Of a DNA stretch of 64,000 bases, positions 5,593 to 15,434 are shown one piece after another. Numbering within the stretch: the first letter of the stretch is position 1; every line of letters begins with the position of its first letter. Under the pieces are notes generated by a model. It was not told the origin of the DNA. It did no database searches and saw only the letters and a program-made list of their open reading frames with translations. This DNA is from Candidatus Didemnitutus sp. (GTDB taxonomy: Bacteria > Verrucomicrobiota > Verrucomicrobiia > Opitutales > Opitutaceae), in NCBI GenBank assembly GCA_017991595.1, contig JAGOQJ010000001.1, forward strand, positions 792,410-856,409, written 5' to 3'. Both the position numbers and the translations under genes were made by a program.

Positions 5593-6873
5593 TTATTCGC
5601 CGAAGGGGTTGGCGGAGTGACGCGGCTCCTTCGCCGGCAGGTAAATCGTGAAGCGACTGCCTTCGCCGAGCTTGGTCTTCACGTGGATGAGGCCGCCGTG
5701 GTGGCGGACGAGGCGCGTGACGATGGCGAGGCCGAGGCCGGTGCCGGTCTGCGTCTTGGTGGTGAAATACGGCTCGAAGATGCGCGAGAGCACGTCCTGC
5801 GGAATGCCGGGGCCCTGATCGAGGGCCGAGACGGCGACGAGGGGCGGCTGGTTGGCGAAGGACTCGAGGTTGATGTAGCGTTCCTCGGCGGTGTCGCGGA
5901 AGGTCTCGATGGGAAGCGGCTCTTCGTAGCGCTCGGCGGCGATCCAGACGGTCTGCGGGCGTTCGCTGCTCTGGAAGGCGTTCACCGTGAGGTTGAGCAG
6001 GATTTGGATGAGCTCCGTGCCACCGATCTGGGCCGCGGCGTCGTGGTCGAGGTGCTTGGCCGAGAGCTTGCCGCCGCGCAACGCCGGGTGGTTGCGCATG
6101 AGCGTGTGGACGTCGTCGATGACTTGGTTGACGGAGACTTCGGGGGCCTGCGCGCTGCGGCGGGCGACGAAGCGCAGGTAGCGGCGCGTGATAGCGGCGC
6201 AGGTGTTGACCTGCTTGGCGAGGAGGTTGACGTCCTCACGCACGGCCTGGAGGTCGGCGCCGTAGAGGGAGCCGACGGCTTCGAGCTTGTAGCGGAGGAG
6301 CTCGACGTAGCCGGTGATGACCGTGAGGGGATTGTTGATGTCGTGCAGCGCGCCGGCGTAGATCTCGGTCGTGGTGCGGGACATCTCCTCCTTCACCGAG
6401 GCGTCGTTGAGCTGTTCGGTGAGGGCTTGGAGGCGTTCGGAAGTGGAGGATACGGTCTCGGAAATGCGGCGCAGGTGGAGGGCGCGCGTGACGGCTTCGC
6501 GGATGGTGGAGAGATCGAAGGGCTTGCTGAGGTAATCGCAGGCGCCGAGGCGGAGGGCTTGGCGGGCGGTCTCGATCGTCTCGTAGGCCGTGAGCATGAT
6601 GACCTCGATGTGCGGGTCGATGGCCTTGAGGCCGCGGAGCACATCGATGCCGGACTTGCCGGCCATGCGGATGTCGAGGATGGCGAGCTGGACGGGATGA
6701 CTGCGGGCGAACTCGAGCGCCTTGTCGCCGTTGTCGACCGCCTGGACGTTGAAGTCCTGGCGGAACACCATGCGCAGCGAGTGGCGCGGGCCCTCTTCGT
6801 CGTCGACGATGAGGAGCGTGGGCAACGTGGGCTGCAGGGCGGTGGCGGCGGGCGCGAGAGTGACGGCGGTCAT
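5593..6873 (-). CDS. receiver-histidine kinase fusion
   Basis: A 426-residue soluble protein with a response-regulator receiver followed directly by a histidine kinase. The receiver (about 18-130) has the acidic pair in IVDDEEG, phospho-acceptor Asp67 (ILDIRM) and Lys117 (LSKPF), so it should be active. The kinase has the H-box His177 in ALHDINNPL, an N-box in LNLTVNAFQ, and G-boxes DQGPGIP and GTGLGLAI. No membrane segment or sensor domain is present, so input must come by phosphotransfer or protein contact. The gene follows the FadL-type gene by 27 nt, with a second kinase upstream of that, suggesting one leftward operon. Confidence 0.9.
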   Translation of the reverse strand: MTAVTLAPAATALQPTLPTLLIVDDEEGPRHSLRMVFRQDFNVQAVDNGDKALEFARSHPVQLAILDIRMAGKSGIDVLRGLKAIDPHIEVIMLTAYETIETARQALRLGACDYLSKPFDLSTIREAVTRALHLRRISETVSSTSERLQALTEQLNDASVKEEMSRTTTEIYAGALHDINNPLTVITGYVELLRYKLEAVGSLYGADLQAVREDVNLLAKQVNTCAAITRRYLRFVARRSAQAPEVSVNQVIDDVHTLMRNHPALRGGKLSAKHLDHDAAAQIGGTELIQILLNLTVNAFQSSERPQTVWIAAERYEEPLPIETFRDTAEERYINLESFANQPPLVAVSALDQGPGIPQDVLSRIFEPYFTTKTQTGTGLGLAIVTRLVRHHGGLIHVKTKLGEGSRFTIYLPAKEPRHSANPFGE

Positions 6874-6900
6874 CGGAGTGTGGTCGGCGGGCGGCGCAGG

Positions 6901-8121
6901 TTAAAACTTATAACCCAAGGAAAGCGATACGGCATTAATGGCGTTGTCATACGCGCCGTCGGCCGTGGCGCCGAGCAGGTTGGCCGGGCTGCCGCTGACG
7001 CGGCGCGTGCCGCCGTCGGCGTGTTGCAGCGCGAGGTCGAAACTCAGGCGCTGCCCGCGGTAACCGAGGCCGGCCGAGTAGAAATGGCGGTCGCTGTCGG
7101 GCACGGCGGGCGTGTAGGTGGCGTCGGGCGTGGAGTTGGCGGTGAAGCAGTAGCCGGCGCTGACGTTCCAGCCGTTGGCGAAGAAGCGCGTGGCGCCGAA
7201 CTCGTAGAAGAAGCCGGATTCCCAGTCGAAGGGGAGAGGCTGGTTGCCCGAGGCCTTCTGCACGGTGACGGTGTTGAAGCGATCCCAACCGGTCCAGTCG
7301 ACGTTGACCTCGAGGTTCCACTCCGGGGTGGGGCGGTAGGACCAGCCGGCGATGACGACGGCAGGGAACTCGAAGCGCGCGCTCGCGGGCTCGCTGGCGA
7401 CGAGGGGCACGGTGGAGGAAGTGCCCTTGATTTTCACCGAGGTGCGGTGCGAATAACTGAGACCGAATTGATGGCGATCGGAGGCTTTCCAGAGCACGCC
7501 GAGGTTGGCGCCGATAGTGTCGCCATCGCCTTCAAAGCGGAAGAGGTCGTTGGGCGCGAAGACACCGAGGCGGCGGTTGAGGTCGGTCTCGATACGGTTG
7601 TAGGTGACGCTGACGCCGAGCGAGAGGGCGGGCGTGACCTGCCAGGCGCCGGTGAAATTGTAGGTGAGGTAGGTTTGCTCGTTCTTGAGCGCGAAGGTGC
7701 GGAGGACCGAGGCGTCGGACCATTCGGTCTCGAGGCCGAAGGGCGCGTAAACGGCGAAGCCGACGGCCCAGGGCGCATCGCTGGGGTTCCACGTGGCGTA
7801 GAGCGAGGGCACGCTGACGTAGCTGTCGTCCATCGACGCGGTGCCGGCGGCGCCGGTGTAATCCGACGAGAGCGAGAGGTGGTAGAGGTTGCCCGAGAGC
7901 TGGAGGCCGGGGAGCTGGGTGATGCCGGCGGGGTTGTAATAGAGGGCGCTGGGGTTGTCGGCGGTGGCGACGAAGGCATTGCCGCGCGCGGTGGCGAAGG
8001 CGTCCTTGAAACCGACGCGGGAGCCAGAGGCGAGTGCCGCGGGCGAATGAAGCAAGGCGAGAGCCCCACCGAGCAGGGCGCAGGCTCTGAGGGCGGGGTG
8101 GAAGAGGTGGACCGGGTTCAT
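6901..8121 (-). CDS. OmpP1/FadL family outer-membrane channel
   Basis: A 406-residue beta-barrel protein with a signal peptide (residues 1-31, ending SPAALA). The FadL hallmark follows the cleavage site: GFKDAFATARGNAFVATADN and ALYYNPAGITQLPG. The rest alternates aromatic beta strands and ends YKF, as outer-membrane proteins do. FadL proteins move long-chain fatty acids and other hydrophobic molecules across the outer membrane by lateral diffusion. Its position is unusual: 2 nt after a GAF/PAS kinase gene and 27 nt before a receiver-kinase gene. That suggests its cargo is sensed rather than, or as well as, eaten. Confidence 0.9.
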   Translation of the reverse strand: MNPVHLFHPALRACALLGGALALLHSPAALASGSRVGFKDAFATARGNAFVATADNPSALYYNPAGITQLPGLQLSGNLYHLSLSSDYTGAAGTASMDDSYVSVPSLYATWNPSDAPWAVGFAVYAPFGLETEWSDASVLRTFALKNEQTYLTYNFTGAWQVTPALSLGVSVTYNRIETDLNRRLGVFAPNDLFRFEGDGDTIGANLGVLWKASDRHQFGLSYSHRTSVKIKGTSSTVPLVASEPASARFEFPAVVIAGWSYRPTPEWNLEVNVDWTGWDRFNTVTVQKASGNQPLPFDWESGFFYEFGATRFFANGWNVSAGYCFTANSTPDATYTPAVPDSDRHFYSAGLGYRGQRLSFDLALQHADGGTRRVSGSPANLLGATADGAYDNAINAVSLSLGYKF

Positions 8122-8123
8122 GC

Positions 8124-10136
8124 TTAGCGTGGGAGGGGCAGCCGGATGGTGAGATCCGGGTCGGTCGGCTGGACGCGCGGGTGCACGTCGAGCTTTCCGT
8201 GATGGGCTTCGATGACGCGCCGGGCGATCGTGAGACCGAGGCCCACGCCCGTGTTGCGCGTCGTGAAGAAGGGTTCCGTGGCGCGGGGGGCGGCCTCCGG
8301 CGTAAAGCCGCGGCCGCTGTCGCTGACCTGAATGACAAGCTCGGCGCGGCCGTCGTGGGTCGGCTCGGCGTTCAGCGCGACCGCGAGCCGGCGGGCGCCG
8401 TCGCCACCGGATTGGAGGCCGTTGAGAAAGATCTCGCGGAAGGCGTGGGCGAGGCTGGCGCGGTTGCAGCGCAGAACGACGGGAGGGAGCTCGCTGCGGA
8501 TGTCGAGGTGCGCCGTGCCGCCGGCGTAGGCACGGGATTGCTCGAAGCTCGTGCGGAGGAGATCGTCGAGCGGGACGAGTTCTTCTGGCGGCTGGTCGGA
8601 GCGCGCGAGCAGGAGCATCTGGTCGGTGAAGCGCTGGATGCGTTGCGTCTCGCGGTCGAGCGATTGCTTGAGGGAGTCGCGAAATTCGGGCTGCTCGATC
8701 TCGCTGGCGAAGAGTTGCGCGTGGGTCGTCAGCGGCACGAGGGAGTTGCGGATCTCGTGGGCGAAGCGGCGCGCGATGAGGCTGATGAGCTTGAGGTTCG
8801 AGGATTCGATCTCGGCGCGCTGGGCGGCGTGGATCTGGGTGAAGTCCTCGAGGAGGAGCAGGGCGGTCTGCGGGAGTTTGCCGCCCTGCGGGCGGAGGGG
8901 CACGAAGCTGACGCGGTAAACGCGTCCGCCGTCCGCGGCGGTGTGGTGGAAAAACGGGGCGAGGTCCGCGCCGCGCTCGATCACTTCGTGGAGGCGGGTG
9001 GCGATCTCGGGCGGCAGGTCGTGCACGTCGAGGTGGTCGGCCCCGGCGCCGCGGAGGAAGGTGATGATGGCGCGGTTGGCGTAGACGATCTGCTGCTGGG
9101 GCGTGGCCACGAGCGCGCCAACGGTGAGGCCGTTGAGCACGCTGCCAAAGAGGCGGTGGCTGCTGACGAGCTGGTGGTGGAGCCAGCTGTTCTTCACCGC
9201 GAGGCCGAGCTCCTCGAGCAAGTGGTAAACGAGGAGGAGTTCTTCGTCGCTGAATTCGCCGCCGGTGATGCGGCCGCCGAGCACGGCGACGCCGAGCGTG
9301 CGTTCACGGTCGTTGACGGGGATGGCGACCTGGCCTCCGAGCACCTCGAACTCGCGGAGAATCTTCGGGTCGAGCGGCTGAGGGTGCGCGCCGTGCGCGG
9401 CACGGAGGATCTGTGGGTAAACGGTGAGCTGGCGGCCCAGCCCGCTCTTGCGCGTGAGCGCGAAGCACTCGACCAAGTCCGCCGGCACGCCCACGGCGGC
9501 GGCGCAGGGCAGCGAGGCGGCGGGCAGGCGGACGCCGCCGGGCAGCGAATCGGAGGAGGGACTCTCCAGGAAGATGGCGATGCGGGAGAGTCCGACGACC
9601 TCGCGCAGCTTGAGCAGGAAGTGCTGGGTGAGCTGGCGGTAATCCAGCGAGTAGCCGAGCACCTGCGAGAAATCGCGCAGCACGCCCAGCGCGGAGGAGA
9701 GCGCGGCGGCCTTGGAGTTGAGCGGGTTCGCTCCGGGCGGCGGCGGCAGGTGGCCGGGGGTGGCGTGTGCGGCGCGTTGCGTGAGACGGACGAGTTGCGC
9801 GGCGAGGGCAGCGGCCTCGATCGGCGGAAAGATCACGCCATCGGCCCCGGCGCCGACCAAACCGGCTTGGGCGGCGGCCGGAGTGCCGGCCGGCGCGAGC
9901 ACGACCAGCGCGAGTCCCGGAGCGGAGGCGCGGGCTTCGACGAGCTCGGCGGTCAATTCCTCGCCGAGTTCCGCGGGCACGAAAAGGCAGGTCTCAAAGG
10001 CCCCGGCAGCCAGGGCGCCGCGCGCTTCGGCGAGCTTGGCGCGGACATGAATCTGGAAGTCCCCGGCGGACGATAGAGCAGCACTCAGCGGTTGGGCTTG
10101 AGCAGAATCGTCGGATATGAGGAGGAGCCGAGTCAC
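8124..10136 (-). CDS. GAF/PAS histidine kinase with degenerate receiver
   Basis: A 670-residue soluble sensor kinase. Residues 1-120 fold like a receiver (MTRLLLISDDS) but have no Asp at the phospho-site (FETCLFVPAE, 47-56) and no conserved Lys (VIFPPI, 101-106), so it is a pseudo-receiver. A GAF domain (about 155-315) and a PAS domain (about 328-435) follow. The kinase core has His460 in FAHEIRNSL and the ATP-lid motifs DSGRGF and GVGLGLTI. It is first in the leftward group, 2 nt before the FadL-type gene. The 152-nt gap to the divergent LuxD-like gene must hold promoters for both groups. Confidence 0.88.
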   Translation of the reverse strand: MTRLLLISDDSAQAQPLSAALSSAGDFQIHVRAKLAEARGALAAGAFETCLFVPAELGEELTAELVEARASAPGLALVVLAPAGTPAAAQAGLVGAGADGVIFPPIEAAALAAQLVRLTQRAAHATPGHLPPPPGANPLNSKAAALSSALGVLRDFSQVLGYSLDYRQLTQHFLLKLREVVGLSRIAIFLESPSSDSLPGGVRLPAASLPCAAAVGVPADLVECFALTRKSGLGRQLTVYPQILRAAHGAHPQPLDPKILREFEVLGGQVAIPVNDRERTLGVAVLGGRITGGEFSDEELLLVYHLLEELGLAVKNSWLHHQLVSSHRLFGSVLNGLTVGALVATPQQQIVYANRAIITFLRGAGADHLDVHDLPPEIATRLHEVIERGADLAPFFHHTAADGGRVYRVSFVPLRPQGGKLPQTALLLLEDFTQIHAAQRAEIESSNLKLISLIARRFAHEIRNSLVPLTTHAQLFASEIEQPEFRDSLKQSLDRETQRIQRFTDQMLLLARSDQPPEELVPLDDLLRTSFEQSRAYAGGTAHLDIRSELPPVVLRCNRASLAHAFREIFLNGLQSGGDGARRLAVALNAEPTHDGRAELVIQVSDSGRGFTPEAAPRATEPFFTTRNTGVGLGLTIARRVIEAHHGKLDVHPRVQPTDPDLTIRLPLPR

Positions 10137-10288: not shown

Positions 10289-11998
10289 ATGAGAGCCGAT
10301 TCCTCCCCGGTGCAGGCGGGGCATATTCTGACCGATTTTGTGCGATTTCCCAATCGCGCAGGGCTGCACATCGCCGCCTGCGTGGATTATTTCGGCCCTA
10401 GTCTCGATCCGCAGCGTCCTTGGGCGGTGGTGGCGCCGAAATTCGGCGAGACGAAGAAAAACGCGCTGCAACTCGCCTACTATCTCGCGGCGAATGGCAT
10501 GAACGTGCTGCGCTTCGACCACACCAACCACGTGGGCGAGAGCGCGGGCGACCAGACCTTCTTCACCCTGTCGAGCGGGGCCGGCGACCTCATTTCGTGC
10601 GGCGACTACCTCGAGCAGACGCACGGTGCCCAGCGCTACACGCTCGTGGCCAACAGCCTCTCCGCGCGCACCGCGATCCGCGCCGCCGCCGGCGACCCGC
10701 GCATCCGGCACCTCGTGTGCCTCGTGGGCGTGGTGAATCTCCGGCACACCCTGCATCAGGTTTACCGCGACGATCTCGTCGGCGGCCACATTGCCGGCAA
10801 GCGCTGGGGCATCGGCGACATGCTCGGCGTGGAGATGGATTACGACGGTTTCCTGCGCTCCGCGGTGGAGGACGAGATGCACGACCTCGGCACGACGCAG
10901 GCGGACCTCGCGAAGAGTGAGGCGTTCGTGTCGTTTTTCTCCGGCGAGCGCGACACCTGGGTGTCGCTGGCGGACGTCGATGCGGTGCTGCGCGGCCGAC
11001 CGAACGCGCGCCTGACGCCGATCCCGGGCGCGATGCACGAGCTGCGCGAGAACGCGGCCGTGGCCGAGAAGGCTTTCCGCGACATCGTTGCCACCTGCAT
11101 CGCGCAGGTGCGCGGTCTGCCGGCGGAGGCGGTCGAGCTCAAGCTGCCGGACAAACGCGAACTCATGCGCCAAAACCGCACCGAGCGCGAGCGGTTGCGT
11201 CTCACGGTGAGGAATCCGCAGGACGAACGCGATTTCTGGGCGAAGTATCTCGAGAAATACCGCCTCATGCAGAGCGTCGACGACTACCAGAGCTACCTCA
11301 GCCTGGTGGGCCGCCTGCTTGGCGAGATCCGACCGCGCGACACGTTGCTCGACGCCGGTTGCGGCAACGGGCTCTTCGGCATGTGGGTGCTGCGCACGCT
11401 GCTCGAACGCGCGCAGCAGGCGGAGTCGCCTCCGGTCTATGTCGGGCTCGATCTCACGCTTGAGGGCCTGCGCGATGCGCTCGACCTGCACAGCGGCTAC
11501 TCGCTGAAACACCGGCGCGGGCCCGAAGCGCGCGCGGGGGAGTTCATCGGGTTGCTTTACGGGCAGACCGATCTCGACACTTGGGGCATGCCAGCCTCGG
11601 AGGTGCCCGAGTTGCTGGTGTTTGCCGACAACACCTTCGACAAAATCTGCTGCAGCCTCGTGCTGTCCTATCTGAACCGGCCGGAAGTCGTGCTGGCCGA
11701 GCTTTACCGGGTGATGCGGCCGGGCGGGCGCATCGTGGTGTCGAGCATGAAGCCGTTCTGCGACATGTCGGAGATCTACCGCGACTTCATGGACCAGCGC
11801 ATCAGCGAGTCCGAACTGGAGTCCGGACGCGATCTGTTGCGCGCGGCGGGCAAGATCCGGCTGAAGGAGGAGCAGGGATTCTATGTTTTCTTCTCTGGCG
11901 AAGAGTTGAGCGCGCTGCTGACCGGAGCGGGCTTCCGGCATTGCGCGACCCATCTGTCCTTCGGTGGACAGGCGACGGTGGCGGTGGCTGAGAAATGA
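10289..11998 (+). CDS. LuxD-like acyltransferase fused to SAM methyltransferase
   Basis: A 569-residue fusion. Residues 10-275 are an alpha/beta hydrolase resembling LuxD, the acyl-ACP thioesterase/acyltransferase of bacterial bioluminescence: FDHTNHVGESAG, then VANSLSAR, VGVVNLRHTL, SGERDTWVS and GAMHEL. The triad Ser-Asp-His is intact (Ser123, Asp222, His250) and near LuxD's Ser114/Asp211/His241. Residues 320-569 are a class I SAM methyltransferase (motif I LLDAGCGNGLFG, 353-364; later VMRPGGRIVVSS). No lux genes are nearby. A likely role is to release or transfer a fatty-acyl group and methylate a related substrate. Start ATG 10289 is likeliest, with GTG 10197 or an earlier codon possible. 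The stop overlaps the next start (ATGA). Confidence 0.78.
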   Translation: MRADSSPVQAGHILTDFVRFPNRAGLHIAACVDYFGPSLDPQRPWAVVAPKFGETKKNALQLAYYLAANGMNVLRFDHTNHVGESAGDQTFFTLSSGAGDLISCGDYLEQTHGAQRYTLVANSLSARTAIRAAAGDPRIRHLVCLVGVVNLRHTLHQVYRDDLVGGHIAGKRWGIGDMLGVEMDYDGFLRSAVEDEMHDLGTTQADLAKSEAFVSFFSGERDTWVSLADVDAVLRGRPNARLTPIPGAMHELRENAAVAEKAFRDIVATCIAQVRGLPAEAVELKLPDKRELMRQNRTERERLRLTVRNPQDERDFWAKYLEKYRLMQSVDDYQSYLSLVGRLLGEIRPRDTLLDAGCGNGLFGMWVLRTLLERAQQAESPPVYVGLDLTLEGLRDALDLHSGYSLKHRRGPEARAGEFIGLLYGQTDLDTWGMPASEVPELLVFADNTFDKICCSLVLSYLNRPEVVLAELYRVMRPGGRIVVSSMKPFCDMSEIYRDFMDQRISESELESGRDLLRAAGKIRLKEEQGFYVFFSGEELSALLTGAGFRHCATHLSFGGQATVAVAEK

Positions 11999-14094
11999 TC
12001 TTCTACTGCGTCCTCACCTCCGCGATCAACACGCTCGCCAGCGTCGTGTTGGCGCTGATGGTCTATTGGAAGAAGCGCCACGGTCCGGCGAACGCGGCCT
12101 TCTCCTGGTTCGCGCTCACGGGCGCGCTGTGGTCGGCGCAATATTTCCTCTGGCAGACGGCGCCGGATGCAGACGGGGCGCTTTTCTACAGCCGGATGCT
12201 CACGGCGGCGGCGATCCTCATCCCGGTGGCGTATTATCATTTCGTGCTGCGGCTGCTCGGCAGCAGCCGGCCACGGCCGATTTTGTTCGGCTACGGCATG
12301 GCCCTCGTGCTGGCGATCCTCTCGCTGACGACCGATTTGCTGGTCATCGGCGTCGAGCAGAAGGGCGTCTTCCCGCACTGGCCGGTGCCGGGGGCGTTGT
12401 ATCCGGTGTATCTGCTGGTGTTCTTCGCCTACACCTCCACGCCGCTCGTGCTGCTCGTGCTGGGTTACCGGCGGGCGCAGGGGTTGGTGCGCAACCAGCT
12501 GCGCTTCGTGATCCTCGGCACGGCGGTCGGCTTCATGGGCGGCGCCACGAATTTCTTCCTCTGGTATGACGTGCCGATCCCGCCGATCGGCAACGGCTTC
12601 GTGGCCTTCTACGTCGTGGGCGTCGGCTACGCGATCCTGCGGTTCCGGTTGATGGAGTTCAACCTGCTGACAGCACGCCTCTCGGCCTACACGGCCATCA
12701 TCCTCGTGCTGGCGGCGCTGTTGCCCACCATCATGCGCGGGCTGGCGCACCTCAACGTCCCGACCGTGCCGCCGATCGGCTTCTGGCCGCTGTTCTTCAC
12801 CAGCGTGTTCGTGACGGTTTTGCTCTTCGGCCTCATCCCCGAGCTGCGCCGGCGCATCGATGCCTTGCTGGAGCAGCGCGTGCTCGGCGACCAGCTGGCG
12901 AATCGCGCGCTGCTGCGCTCGCTCGCGGCGAAGATCAGCTCGTCGCAGGACGAGGCGGCGATGTTCCGCGAGGTCGCGGCGAACGTGGCCGAGGCGCTGC
13001 ACGTGGCGCAGGTCGCGCTCTACACGCGCACGGAATACGAAACGGATTTCACCCGCCGGGCTTCGGTGGGCAACGACCGCGGGCCGGCCACGCTACCCGA
13101 GGTCTCGGTGCTCATGCAGACGCTGAAGTCGGCCGGGCGCGGCCTGCTGCTCGACGAGTTGGTGCACATGCAGGTGGGCGAGCGCCGGGCCTATTTCGCC
13201 GATCTTCGCCGGCGGCATGGACTCGAGCTGCTGGTGCCGGTGATCGGCGACAACTTCTTCTACGGCTGCATCGCGCTCGGGCCGCGGTCCGGCAACTCGC
13301 TGTTCACCGACATCGACGTCTCACTGCTGGAGGCCGTCGGCCTGCAGATCGGGCTGAACCTCCGCGCCCGCCAGCTCGAACGCCACTCCAGCCAGACGGA
13401 AAAGCTCATCGCCCTCGGCACGCTGGCGGCCGGCCTCGCGCACGAGTTGCGCAATCCACTGACCTCGATCCAAACCTTCTCCGCGCTGCTGCGCGAGAAT
13501 CGCCCCGACGTGGAGTCGCTGCAGGAATTCAGCGGCGTCGTGCAGCGCGACGTGAACCGCATCGCCAGCATCGTGGACAACGTGGCGGCCTTCGCCGAGA
13601 GCAACAAGGTGGAGATGACGGCGGTGAATGTCGCCGACGTGCTGCGCACCGTCGTGGAGATCGTGCGTCCCGAAATCCAACGCACGGGCGCGGTCGTGGA
13701 GCTGCCCGCGGCGCGCGGTCTGCTCGTGCGCGGCAACCACAGCCAGTTGCTGCAGGTGTTTCTCAATCTGGTGCAGAATGCGTTGCAGGCGCTCGACGGT
13801 CGGTCCGAGCCGCGCCTGCGCCTCGGGCTCGAAGCGCGCGAGACGGCCGGTGCGCCGGCGCTCGTTTGCGTGAGCGTGAGCGACAACGGTCCGGGCATCG
13901 ATCCCGCGCTCCTGCCGCGCATCTTCGAGCCGTTCACGACCACCAAGTCGACCGGCGACCGCCGCGGCAAACACGGCATGGGCCTCGGGCTCGCCATCGT
14001 GAAACGCATCGTGCAACACCACCAAGGCGAGATCCACGTGACCAGCCAGCCCGGACGCGGCACCACGTTCCGCGTCTTCTTCCCACATTCCTGA
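11995..14094 (+). CDS. multi-TM sensor histidine kinase with GAF domain
   Basis: A 699-residue membrane kinase. Residues 1-285 contain about eight hydrophobic segments; the first seven resemble the 7TM sensor region of histidine kinases, a layout also seen in PrsK-type kinases. A GAF domain spans about 310-455. The kinase core has His483 in GLAHELRNPLTSI, an N-box in LVQNALQAL, and G-boxes DNGPGID and GMGLGLAI, all intact. Its ATG overlaps the stop of the acyltransferase-methyltransferase gene (ATGA), and its own TGA overlaps the next ATG (TGATG). All three are therefore probably made together. A membrane-embedded sensor suits a hydrophobic ligand; that link is inference. Confidence 0.9.
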   Translation: MIFYCVLTSAINTLASVVLALMVYWKKRHGPANAAFSWFALTGALWSAQYFLWQTAPDADGALFYSRMLTAAAILIPVAYYHFVLRLLGSSRPRPILFGYGMALVLAILSLTTDLLVIGVEQKGVFPHWPVPGALYPVYLLVFFAYTSTPLVLLVLGYRRAQGLVRNQLRFVILGTAVGFMGGATNFFLWYDVPIPPIGNGFVAFYVVGVGYAILRFRLMEFNLLTARLSAYTAIILVLAALLPTIMRGLAHLNVPTVPPIGFWPLFFTSVFVTVLLFGLIPELRRRIDALLEQRVLGDQLANRALLRSLAAKISSSQDEAAMFREVAANVAEALHVAQVALYTRTEYETDFTRRASVGNDRGPATLPEVSVLMQTLKSAGRGLLLDELVHMQVGERRAYFADLRRRHGLELLVPVIGDNFFYGCIALGPRSGNSLFTDIDVSLLEAVGLQIGLNLRARQLERHSSQTEKLIALGTLAAGLAHELRNPLTSIQTFSALLRENRPDVESLQEFSGVVQRDVNRIASIVDNVAAFAESNKVEMTAVNVADVLRTVVEIVRPEIQRTGAVVELPAARGLLVRGNHSQLLQVFLNLVQNALQALDGRSEPRLRLGLEARETAGAPALVCVSVSDNGPGIDPALLPRIFEPFTTTKSTGDRRGKHGMGLGLAIVKRIVQHHQGEIHVTSQPGRGTTFRVFFPHS

Positions 14095-15434
14095 TGAGCA
14101 TCGCCCCTCCCGTCCTCCTCGATGGCCCCGCCGCCCTGCGGGCGCTGGCGCGGGCTTTCGCCCAGTTCGATCAGTTCGACCGGTTTGTCGGCGGCCTGCA
14201 GGCCGCGCTCGAACGCGCCCCGGCCTTCGAGCAGGTGCGCATCCGGCTCAACCGCGACCTGGCCGAGGGAACGGAGCGTTTCCGCGCCGCGGGGCTCGCG
14301 GTGCCGTTGCTGGGCGACACGCCGCTCGGCGCGTTGCAGGTCGGCTCGAACGGCGAGCGCCGGCAATTCGGCGCCGAGGACTTGCACCTGCTGGCGGGTC
14401 TGGCGGATTTCCTCGGCGCGGTCCTGACGCAGGCGCAGCGCTTGCAGGACGCCGCGCGCAGCCGCGAGCTGTTGCGGCTGCTGCTCAATCAGGCTCCGGT
14501 CGGCATCGCCGCCTACGGCTGCGACCGCCGGCCGCTCGTGGCCAACGAGTCCGCGATCCGCTGGCTGGGCGCAGCGGCGCTGCCGTTCGACGAAATCGAG
14601 GCGGGGCAGGAGGGCTTCCACCTCCGCGCCGGCGGCAAGCTCATCTACGGTGAGGCACGGCGGGTGAACGATGTCCCGGGCGGCGCCTGGGTCGTGGTGT
14701 TGCAGGATCTGACGCCTGAGCAGGGACGTTTGCTCGAGGGCATGGAGCGCGAGGTGTTCCGCGCGCGGGCCGAGGGCGGGCATTGCGCGGTGGCGCTCGT
14801 CGAGAGCCTCGACCAGCGCAACGGCGCGCTGCGGCGCCTGCCGGCGGTGCGCGCCTTGTTGCGGCAGGGCGAGCAGGCGGGGCCTTACGATGCGAACCGC
14901 GTCGGACTCGTGCTGGCCGACCGCGGGCTGGCCCTGCGCATGCGCCTGCGGAAAATGCGCGAGATCTTCGCCGGATTGCCGGAGCTGCGGCTGGGTTATG
15001 CGGAGTTGGAGCGCGACGGACGCGAGCCGGCGCTGCTGCTGCAGGCCGCGCTGCAACGCTGGGGACGCTACGACGAGTTGCTGCGGCCGTGCCTGCTGGT
15101 GCAGGAAGGGAACCCCGGCGTCGCGGCCACGCTCGTCATGGTGCTCGGCCGGCAGTTCAAGATCGTGACTTCCGCGAGTGCAGAGCAGACGCGCGAACAG
15201 CTGGCGACGGAGCGCTTCGAGGGATTCATCGCGGAACTCGAGCCGCGCAACGGTCCGGGCGGCGCGGAGATGGTCCGTCTCGCGCAATCGCTCCAACCCG
15301 GCATCCGCACCTTCCTCACGACGATCCAGCCGGTTGCCGCGGAGGCGCTGGCGGGCACGGATGCGGTGGTGATCGAGAAACCTTTCGACGTGGCCCGGCT
15401 CACGGCGCTCGTGCAGGCTCGGCTGGCCGAGTGA
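14094..15434 (+). CDS. GAF-PAS protein with Glu-type pseudo-receiver
   Basis: A 446-residue soluble protein, last of the overlapping trio. Residues 15-115 look GAF-like and 125-205 PAS-like (LNQAPVGIAAYG). Residues 215-325 resemble a worn GGDEF-like or partner-binding region without a GGDEF motif. Residues 331-446 are a receiver fold in which Glu381 (FIAELEP) replaces the phospho-acceptor Asp, while Lys429 (VIEKPF) and the Thr409/410 switch position remain. A Glu there often mimics the phosphorylated state, so the domain may be permanently 'on' or serve as a docking partner for the kinase. There is no DNA-binding domain. Confidence 0.7.
   Translation: MSIAPPVLLDGPAALRALARAFAQFDQFDRFVGGLQAALERAPAFEQVRIRLNRDLAEGTERFRAAGLAVPLLGDTPLGALQVGSNGERRQFGAEDLHLLAGLADFLGAVLTQAQRLQDAARSRELLRLLLNQAPVGIAAYGCDRRPLVANESAIRWLGAAALPFDEIEAGQEGFHLRAGGKLIYGEARRVNDVPGGAWVVVLQDLTPEQGRLLEGMEREVFRARAEGGHCAVALVESLDQRNGALRRLPAVRALLRQGEQAGPYDANRVGLVLADRGLALRMRLRKMREIFAGLPELRLGYAELERDGREPALLLQAALQRWGRYDELLRPCLLVQEGNPGVAATLVMVLGRQFKIVTSASAEQTREQLATERFEGFIAELEPRNGPGGAEMVRLAQSLQPGIRTFLTTIQPVAAEALAGTDAVVIEKPFDVARLTALVQARLAE

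Follow-up and report, generated by a model that had tools for sequence, protein, structure and literature searches.

A LuxD-type hydrolase–methyltransferase and a seven-transmembrane histidine kinase as a candidate fatty-acyl signalling system in Candidatus Didemnitutus and its relatives

A 64,000-nucleotide stretch of Candidatus Didemnitutus sp. (contig JAGOQJ010000001.1; hereafter the window) carries a locus in which a LuxD-type acyl hydrolase fused to a class I S-adenosylmethionine (SAM) methyltransferase, g1, is followed by a seven-transmembrane (7TM) histidine kinase, g2, and by a protein with a degenerate receiver, g3 (Table 1). A preliminary description of this DNA had reported three overlapping genes, and the gene coordinates agree: g1 and g2 overlap by 4 nt (ATGA), and g2 and g3 by 1 nt (TGATG). 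The genes exist as described, but the three-gene view was too small, as it overlooked a divergent gene set at 5593-10136 (uHK, FadL and REC-HK) that is part of the same conserved locus; the layout recurs in relatives. Our analysis suggests that g1 probably makes a fatty-acyl signal, which is predicted to be sensed by g2.

Table 1. Coordinates of the features of the locus in the window.
Feature	Position	Strand	Evidence
g1: LuxD-type acyl hydrolase fused to class I SAM methyltransferase, 569 aa	10289..11998	+	PF02273, PF13489, 1THT
LuxD-like domain of g1, residues 47-299	10427..11185	+	PF02273
g1 Ser123 codon, predicted nucleophile	10655..10657	+	S in 43/43 rows
g1 Asp222 codon	10952..10954	+	D in 43/43 rows
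g1 His250 codon	11036..11038	+	H in 43/43 rows
g1 methyltransferase domain, residues 336-550	11294..11938	+	PF13489 E=8.3e-12; motif I conservation
g2: 7TM-GAF histidine kinase, 699 aa	11995..14094	+	PF16927, PF00512, PF02518
7TM sensor part of g2, residues 13-221	12031..12657	+	PF16927; hydropathy
g2 His483 codon, predicted phosphorylation site	13441..13443	+	H in 39/39 rows
g3: weak GAF and PAS matches, degenerate receiver, 446 aa	14094..15434	+	Pfam, NCBIfam CpdR, alignment column
g3 Glu381 codon at receiver acceptor position	15234..15236	+	E 29, D 3, gap 1 of 33 rows
Block of g1 and sensing half of g2 changing type as one	10466..13330 (approximate ends: g1 residue 60, g2 residue 445)	+	Sliding identities
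uHK: kinase with GAF, PAS, HisKA and HATPase_c matches, 670 aa, divergent from g1	8124..10136	-	Pfam; 38/46 loci by best BLAST match
FadL-type outer-membrane channel, 406 aa	6901..8121	-	PF03349 E=2.1e-50; 26/46 loci
REC-HK: receiver and histidine kinase, 426 aa	5593..6873	-	PF00072 E=1.7e-26, PF00512, PF02518; 36/46 loci

The hydrolase half of g1 matches PF02273 (Acyl_transf_2) with E=3.8e-25 (89.2 bits against a cut-off of 20.3). A PDB sequence search with g1 matched four entries, the first being 1THT (E=4e-23) and the next over the hydrolase half reaching E=2.5e-5, and a structure search also put 1THT, the myristoyl-acyl carrier protein (ACP) thioesterase of Vibrio harveyi, as the best match. 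The Ser-Asp-His triad of g1 is placed as in 1THT. Ser123, Asp222 and His250 are invariant in all 43 rows of the g1 alignment (the window plus the 42 of 46 loci whose g1 row covered over 80%), as are the SAM-motif residues D355, G357, G359 and G361. Methyltransferase families match within residues 336-550, and this fold is about equally like many class I enzymes, including CmoA, Coq5, phosphoethanolamine methyltransferases and C-methyltransferases; an NCBIfam scan gave no good match to a fatty-acid methyltransferase family (Mtf2, E=0.0013). The protein scores 87.6 bits against the LuxD equivalog NF052253, far below its cut-off of 420, and LuxC (PF05893) and LuxE (PF04443) found no match in the genome, which is 87% complete. 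Thus, profile, sequence and structure searches all place the domain nearest LuxD rather than in a generic hydrolase family, and what had been read from the letters alone (a LuxD-like domain with an intact triad, its fusion to a SAM methyltransferase) holds.

The N-terminal part of g2 is that of a HisKA_7TM kinase by profile (PF16927 on residues 13-221, E=5.6e-16, 59.5 bits against a cut-off of 28.6). Matches to GAF (weak), HisKA and HATPase_c were also found, hydropathy gives eight hydrophobic segments before residue 280, and His483 is conserved in 39 of 39 rows. Pfam gave no receiver match in g3 even at E up to 10, and its GAF and PAS matches there are weak; the NCBIfam profile CpdR weakly matches residues 337-441 (E=0.0083). 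The acceptor column at Glu381 holds Glu in 29 of 33 rows, Asp in three (L103, L116 and L117) and a gap in one, while Lys429 is conserved in 31 of 33. The membrane kinase with His483 and the receiver-like end with Glu for Asp, both put forward earlier, are borne out by the PF16927 match, hydropathy and the conserved His483, and by the Glu381 column, respectively.

g1 and g2 occur together. Among 95 relatives, full-length g1 is present in 19 (one has it twice), with one further copy cut by a contig end, and the N-terminal part of g2 is present in 21, namely the 20 with g1 and genome G013 (hypergeometric p=1.2e-19, uncorrected for kinship). In G013 (L051, 7998-8372), the match to g1 is limited to some 71 residues of its C-terminal end, immediately ahead of a g2 and g3 that look intact. 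In a draw across the phylum, g1 was present in 6 of 387 genomes, one of them that of the window itself. The scan of named genomes yielded 46 loci, 42 from Verrucomicrobiota, two from Omnitrophota (L118 and L119) and two from Nitrospirae (L120 and L123); many come from the same genomes as the 95 relatives. A g2-type kinase lies directly after g1 in all 46, with an extrapolated 4-nt overlap in 40, so that the fusion is never separate from the kinase there. We also observed that the metagenome-assembled G045 has two g1-g2 loci (L042 and L043); its contamination is estimated at 7%, and it may therefore be two strains. Two partial proteins named as Candidatus Binatia match the methyltransferase part of g1.

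The locus is a mosaic. Between the window and locus L086, identity is 85% for REC-HK, 74% for FadL, 70% for uHK, 74% for the kinase half of g2 and 64% for g3; it is 51% for the LuxD part, 53% for the methyltransferase, 34% for the 7TM part and 31% for GAF. Twenty-four rows had all genes; leaving out L078, which nearly duplicates the window, and L083, whose kinase lies in two frames, gave 22 complete loci. Across them, and after removal of the identity predicted by REC-HK and uHK, the LuxD, methyltransferase, 7TM and GAF parts rise and fall together in identity (r 0.64-0.85, 0 of 2000 permutations in each of five pairs). In contrast, weaker values were obtained for LuxD with the kinase half (r=0.10, 165/2000) and with g3 (0.18, 28/2000), for GAF with the kinase half (0.16, 32/2000), and for 7TM with g3 (0.07, 287/2000). 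The type defined from 7TM identity changes once on the g1 and GAF trees of these loci, which are the tests, as the single change on the 7TM tree follows by construction. On the kinase-half, uHK, REC-HK and joint backbone trees it changes five times, and on the g3 tree four times. The types are mildly clustered on the backbone, where 30-33 of 500 shuffles gave as few as five changes, and in approximately unbiased (AU) tests a single clade for the type is rejected both on the backbone (p=5e-121) and on the kinase half (p=5e-74). AU tests also reject the groups L092/L095, L103/L112, L090/L110 and window/L079/L086/L106 as clades on g1 (p 3e-6 to 1e-33) and on 7TM (p 0.003 to 1e-52), and the last group forms a clade on the kinase-half tree; these groups were picked after the identities were seen, and the trees were quick LG+G4 trees. 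Within g1, type differences are large in windows 181-240 and 401-440, which, judged by the secondary structure of the modelled protein, may correspond to the hydrolase cap and to a part near the methyl acceptor.

The ends of the exchanged block are visible in closely related loci. L092 and L095, a near-identical pair in which both loci are of type B, have flanks that mostly reach 93-99% identity. In 150-nt windows left of g1 the identity is 89-100%; from about 200 nt ahead of g1 it is down to 53-77%, recovers to 93% at around g2 residue 310, and further right lies mostly at 89-99%. This pair shows a second, short dip to 67%, separate from the g1-7TM block, roughly 3.8-4.1 kb beyond the g1 start and within the N-terminal part of g3. 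Identity returns near g2 residue 440-460 in L103/L112, L090/L110 and window/L086, and no such step was found in the like-type pairs L091/L104, L097/L109, window/L079 and L086/L106. Since the breakpoints differ between pairs, the exchanged blocks do not share their ends, yet they take in g1 with the 7TM part and leave the phosphorylating half of g2 untouched. If product and sensor must match, enzyme and sensor are expected to be replaced jointly while the transmitter stays in place, and the joint type change thus supports, as evolutionary evidence, the view that the two would have to do so.

A further contrast comes from the phylum of the L120 genome (record title Nitrospirae), in which LuxD-methyltransferase proteins occur at 55 places in 52 of 245 genomes; a draw from Omnitrophota gave two places in 2 of 237 genomes. 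We compared 20 proteins, 19 from the former and one from the latter. Twelve have an intact triad and a neighbouring 7TM kinase. Seven long proteins (L158-L164, 1241-1435 aa) have lost Ser, Asp and His, with Asp in place of Ser in all seven and D355 or G361 of the methyltransferase altered in five, and no 7TM kinase was found in the stretch read around them (p=2e-5 for the 12-and-7 table, L165 excluded). These may be dead enzymes reused as sensors. One to three N-terminal PilZ domains, a c-di-GMP (cyclic diguanylate)-binding family, are present in all five proteins given to Pfam (L148, L152, L158, L164 and L165; 998-1433 aa), with PAS also in L158 and L164 and a receiver also in L164. The neighbours of L158 are a soluble kinase, a sigma-54 regulator and a receiver-HD_5 protein. 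We also observed that, in the kinases next to L148, L152-L155 and L157 (977-1015 aa), the 7TM profile matches twice in tandem before GAF and kinase.

Among the 46 named loci, the best BLAST match exceeded 45 bits for g2 in 46, uHK in 38, REC-HK in 36, g3 in 34 and FadL in 26, and these counts are low because many contigs are short. The assignment of REC-HK in L102, L118-L120 and L123 depends on the receiver part or on weak matches, and that of uHK in L120 and L123 on 21-24% identity. The receiver of REC-HK looks complete, and no DNA-binding domain was found among the Pfam matches of this protein. On visual inspection, uHK resembles a receiver without the acceptor Asp over roughly its first 125 residues. 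The REC-HK gene ends the g1-g2-g3 series in the Puniceicoccaceae loci L114, L116 and L117. As downstream regulator, L118 and L123 have a receiver joined to an HD_5 domain in which the HD and GYP motifs occur; a lone receiver takes this place in L119, and a receiver-PAS-kinase in L120. In L118 (11680-16123), two 7TM kinases stand in tandem after g1, followed by the receiver-HD_5 regulator.

On the basis of these results, we propose the following scheme. By analogy with LuxD, Ser123, Asp222 and His250 of g1 would take an acyl chain from acyl-ACP, and the methyltransferase domain may methylate the acyl product once it is released, a fatty-acid methyl ester being the simplest outcome; this route from acyl-ACP through fatty acid to methylated product follows the two domains of g1. 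The methyl-ester step is the least certain, because the methyltransferase has no substrate-specific relative. The hydrophobic product would leave and re-enter the cell, presumably helped by the FadL channel. The 7TM part of g2 would then bind the product and set the phosphorylation of His483, and the phosphate may pass to REC-HK, with the g3 pseudo-receiver and uHK tuning the relay. The domains, the conserved layout and the invariant catalytic residues are seen in the sequences, and the joint type change of g1 and the sensor, apart from the surrounding genes, fits a matched pair of signal maker and receptor. The earlier proposal that the enzyme makes a signal sensed by its own membrane kinase gains support from the joint type change, while the fatty-acyl product, its methylation and its binding stay predictions.

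The same data can be read in other ways. A signal could be made that is not a methyl ester, through methylation of another group or transfer of the acyl chain to a small acceptor that is then methylated. The similarity of the methyltransferase to enzymes of diverse substrates and the poor Mtf2 match would suit this; however, a released fatty acid and SAM lead most directly to a methyl ester, and the known Phc signals are methyl esters (PMC8578825). We regard it as a real but lesser possibility. Alternatively, g1 could be a partner protein that binds the membrane part of g2 and reports the supply of acyl-ACP, the joint type change then reflecting a protein–protein interface. Such a partner predicts the same co-exchange, the sensor RpfR has been described as binding RpfF, a signal enzyme, with inhibition of its thioesterase (PMC13220807), and the Nitrospirae-group proteins that combine a lost triad with PilZ, PAS or receiver domains show that the fold can serve without catalysis. 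Both catalytic sites are nevertheless invariant in all 43 kinase-paired rows, and triad loss goes with lack of the 7TM kinase, whereas a purely structural role would lead one to expect the reverse; we consider this explanation improbable. Finally, g1 could be a housekeeping enzyme of membrane lipids or fatty acids under control of the kinase, without a cell-to-cell signal. LuxD chemistry is lipid metabolism and FadL stands in the locus, but the patchy occurrence (20 of 95 relatives, 6 of 387 genomes of the phylum draw) speaks against it, and it gives no reason for the type to change with the sensor half of the kinase. We consider it about as improbable, if not slightly more so.

Several observations also weigh against the proposed signalling role of g1 and g2. 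The contrast between sensor and kinase is imperfect (7TM with the kinase half, r=0.21, 2/2000 permutations), and linkage alone can make neighbouring parts move together. The seven proteins without the triad probably represent a single lineage, and L165, which retains Ser and Asp and has a gap at His, lacks a 7TM neighbour. G013 has g2 with only the g1 remnant of about 71 residues, FadL was recognised in just 26 of the 46 loci, many loci come from metagenome assemblies, and the methyltransferase could not be tied to a substrate by a specific relative.

We favor, as the best reading, a Phc-like fatty-acyl, possibly methyl-ester, cell–cell signalling system with a LuxD-methyltransferase synthase. 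The chances seem to us about even that this is a new class of fatty-acyl cell–cell signalling, in which such a synthase works with a 7TM kinase in Verrucomicrobiota, Omnitrophota and a Nitrospirae group, signal types can be exchanged (lipid pherotypes), and one branch has synthases under PilZ control as well as dead synthase copies recruited as components of signalling. Judged by titles and the beginnings of abstracts, none of the papers listed by our literature searches describes a LuxD-methyltransferase signalling system, which is weak evidence of absence since subscription papers lie mostly outside this coverage; the review PMC13220807 contains no occurrence of LuxD or of Verrucomicrob. One study (PMC9938287) reportedly concerns FadL and long-chain N-acyl-homoserine lactones. 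Should the proposal hold, several poorly cultured phyla would possess a lipid signal of their own, its enzyme and receptor both named, a LuxD relative would function in signalling and not in luminescence, and a swap limited to g1 and the 7TM half could test specificity directly. Verrucomicrobia bacterium IMCC26134 (L109), whose record is titled as a complete genome, has g1, g2, g3, uHK, FadL and REC-HK, and such a test therefore need not depend on metagenomes.

The candidate system shares features with several known ones. g1 resembles LuxD in its fold, catalytic triad and ASLSAR-like nucleophile region; in contrast, it is only about 24% identical, is fused to a methyltransferase, and is found in a genome without LuxC or LuxE matches. 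The Rpf/DSF (diffusible signal factor) system (RpfF, RpfC, RpfG) likewise has a fatty-acyl signal enzyme with thioesterase activity, a sensor kinase and, as in L118 and L123 here, a receiver with an HD-GYP-type domain; no HD-GYP gene was found among the scanned genes of the window locus. RpfF is a crotonase-fold enzyme, not a LuxD, and has no methyltransferase, whereas g1 is of LuxD type with a methyltransferase, and no crotonase family was found among its Pfam matches. Signal-making genes and the sensor part of the receptor also vary as one block in the Gram-positive pherotype loci comQXP and comCD; their signals are peptides, whereas the enzyme here has lipid-enzyme folds.

The closest known system is Phc of Ralstonia, which the preliminary description, otherwise supported in its reading, did not name. 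As described in PMC8578825 and PMC11960443, phcBSRQ uses methyl 3-hydroxymyristate or methyl 3-hydroxypalmitate as signals (PMC8578825), and PhcS senses the signal, with phosphate passing to PhcR and PhcQ (PMC11960443). PhcR is a receiver plus kinase and PhcQ a receiver, both without a DNA-binding domain; the strains fall into groups of signal type by their PhcB and PhcS sequences, whereas PhcR and PhcQ track phylotype (PMC8578825). Our locus departs from Phc in the fusion of its methyltransferase to a LuxD hydrolase and in that no more of the kinase than its 7TM/GAF part changes with the synthase. Its lone receiver (g3) is also degenerate, and it has FadL and a second kinase in addition. The likeness is one of architecture and evolutionary pattern: both loci combine a methyltransferase, a membrane sensor kinase, a receiver-kinase without a DNA-binding domain and a receiver protein (PMC8578825). 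Furthermore, in both, synthase and sensor follow type and the relay proteins follow strain phylogeny, the types here being sequence types only (compared with PMC8578825).

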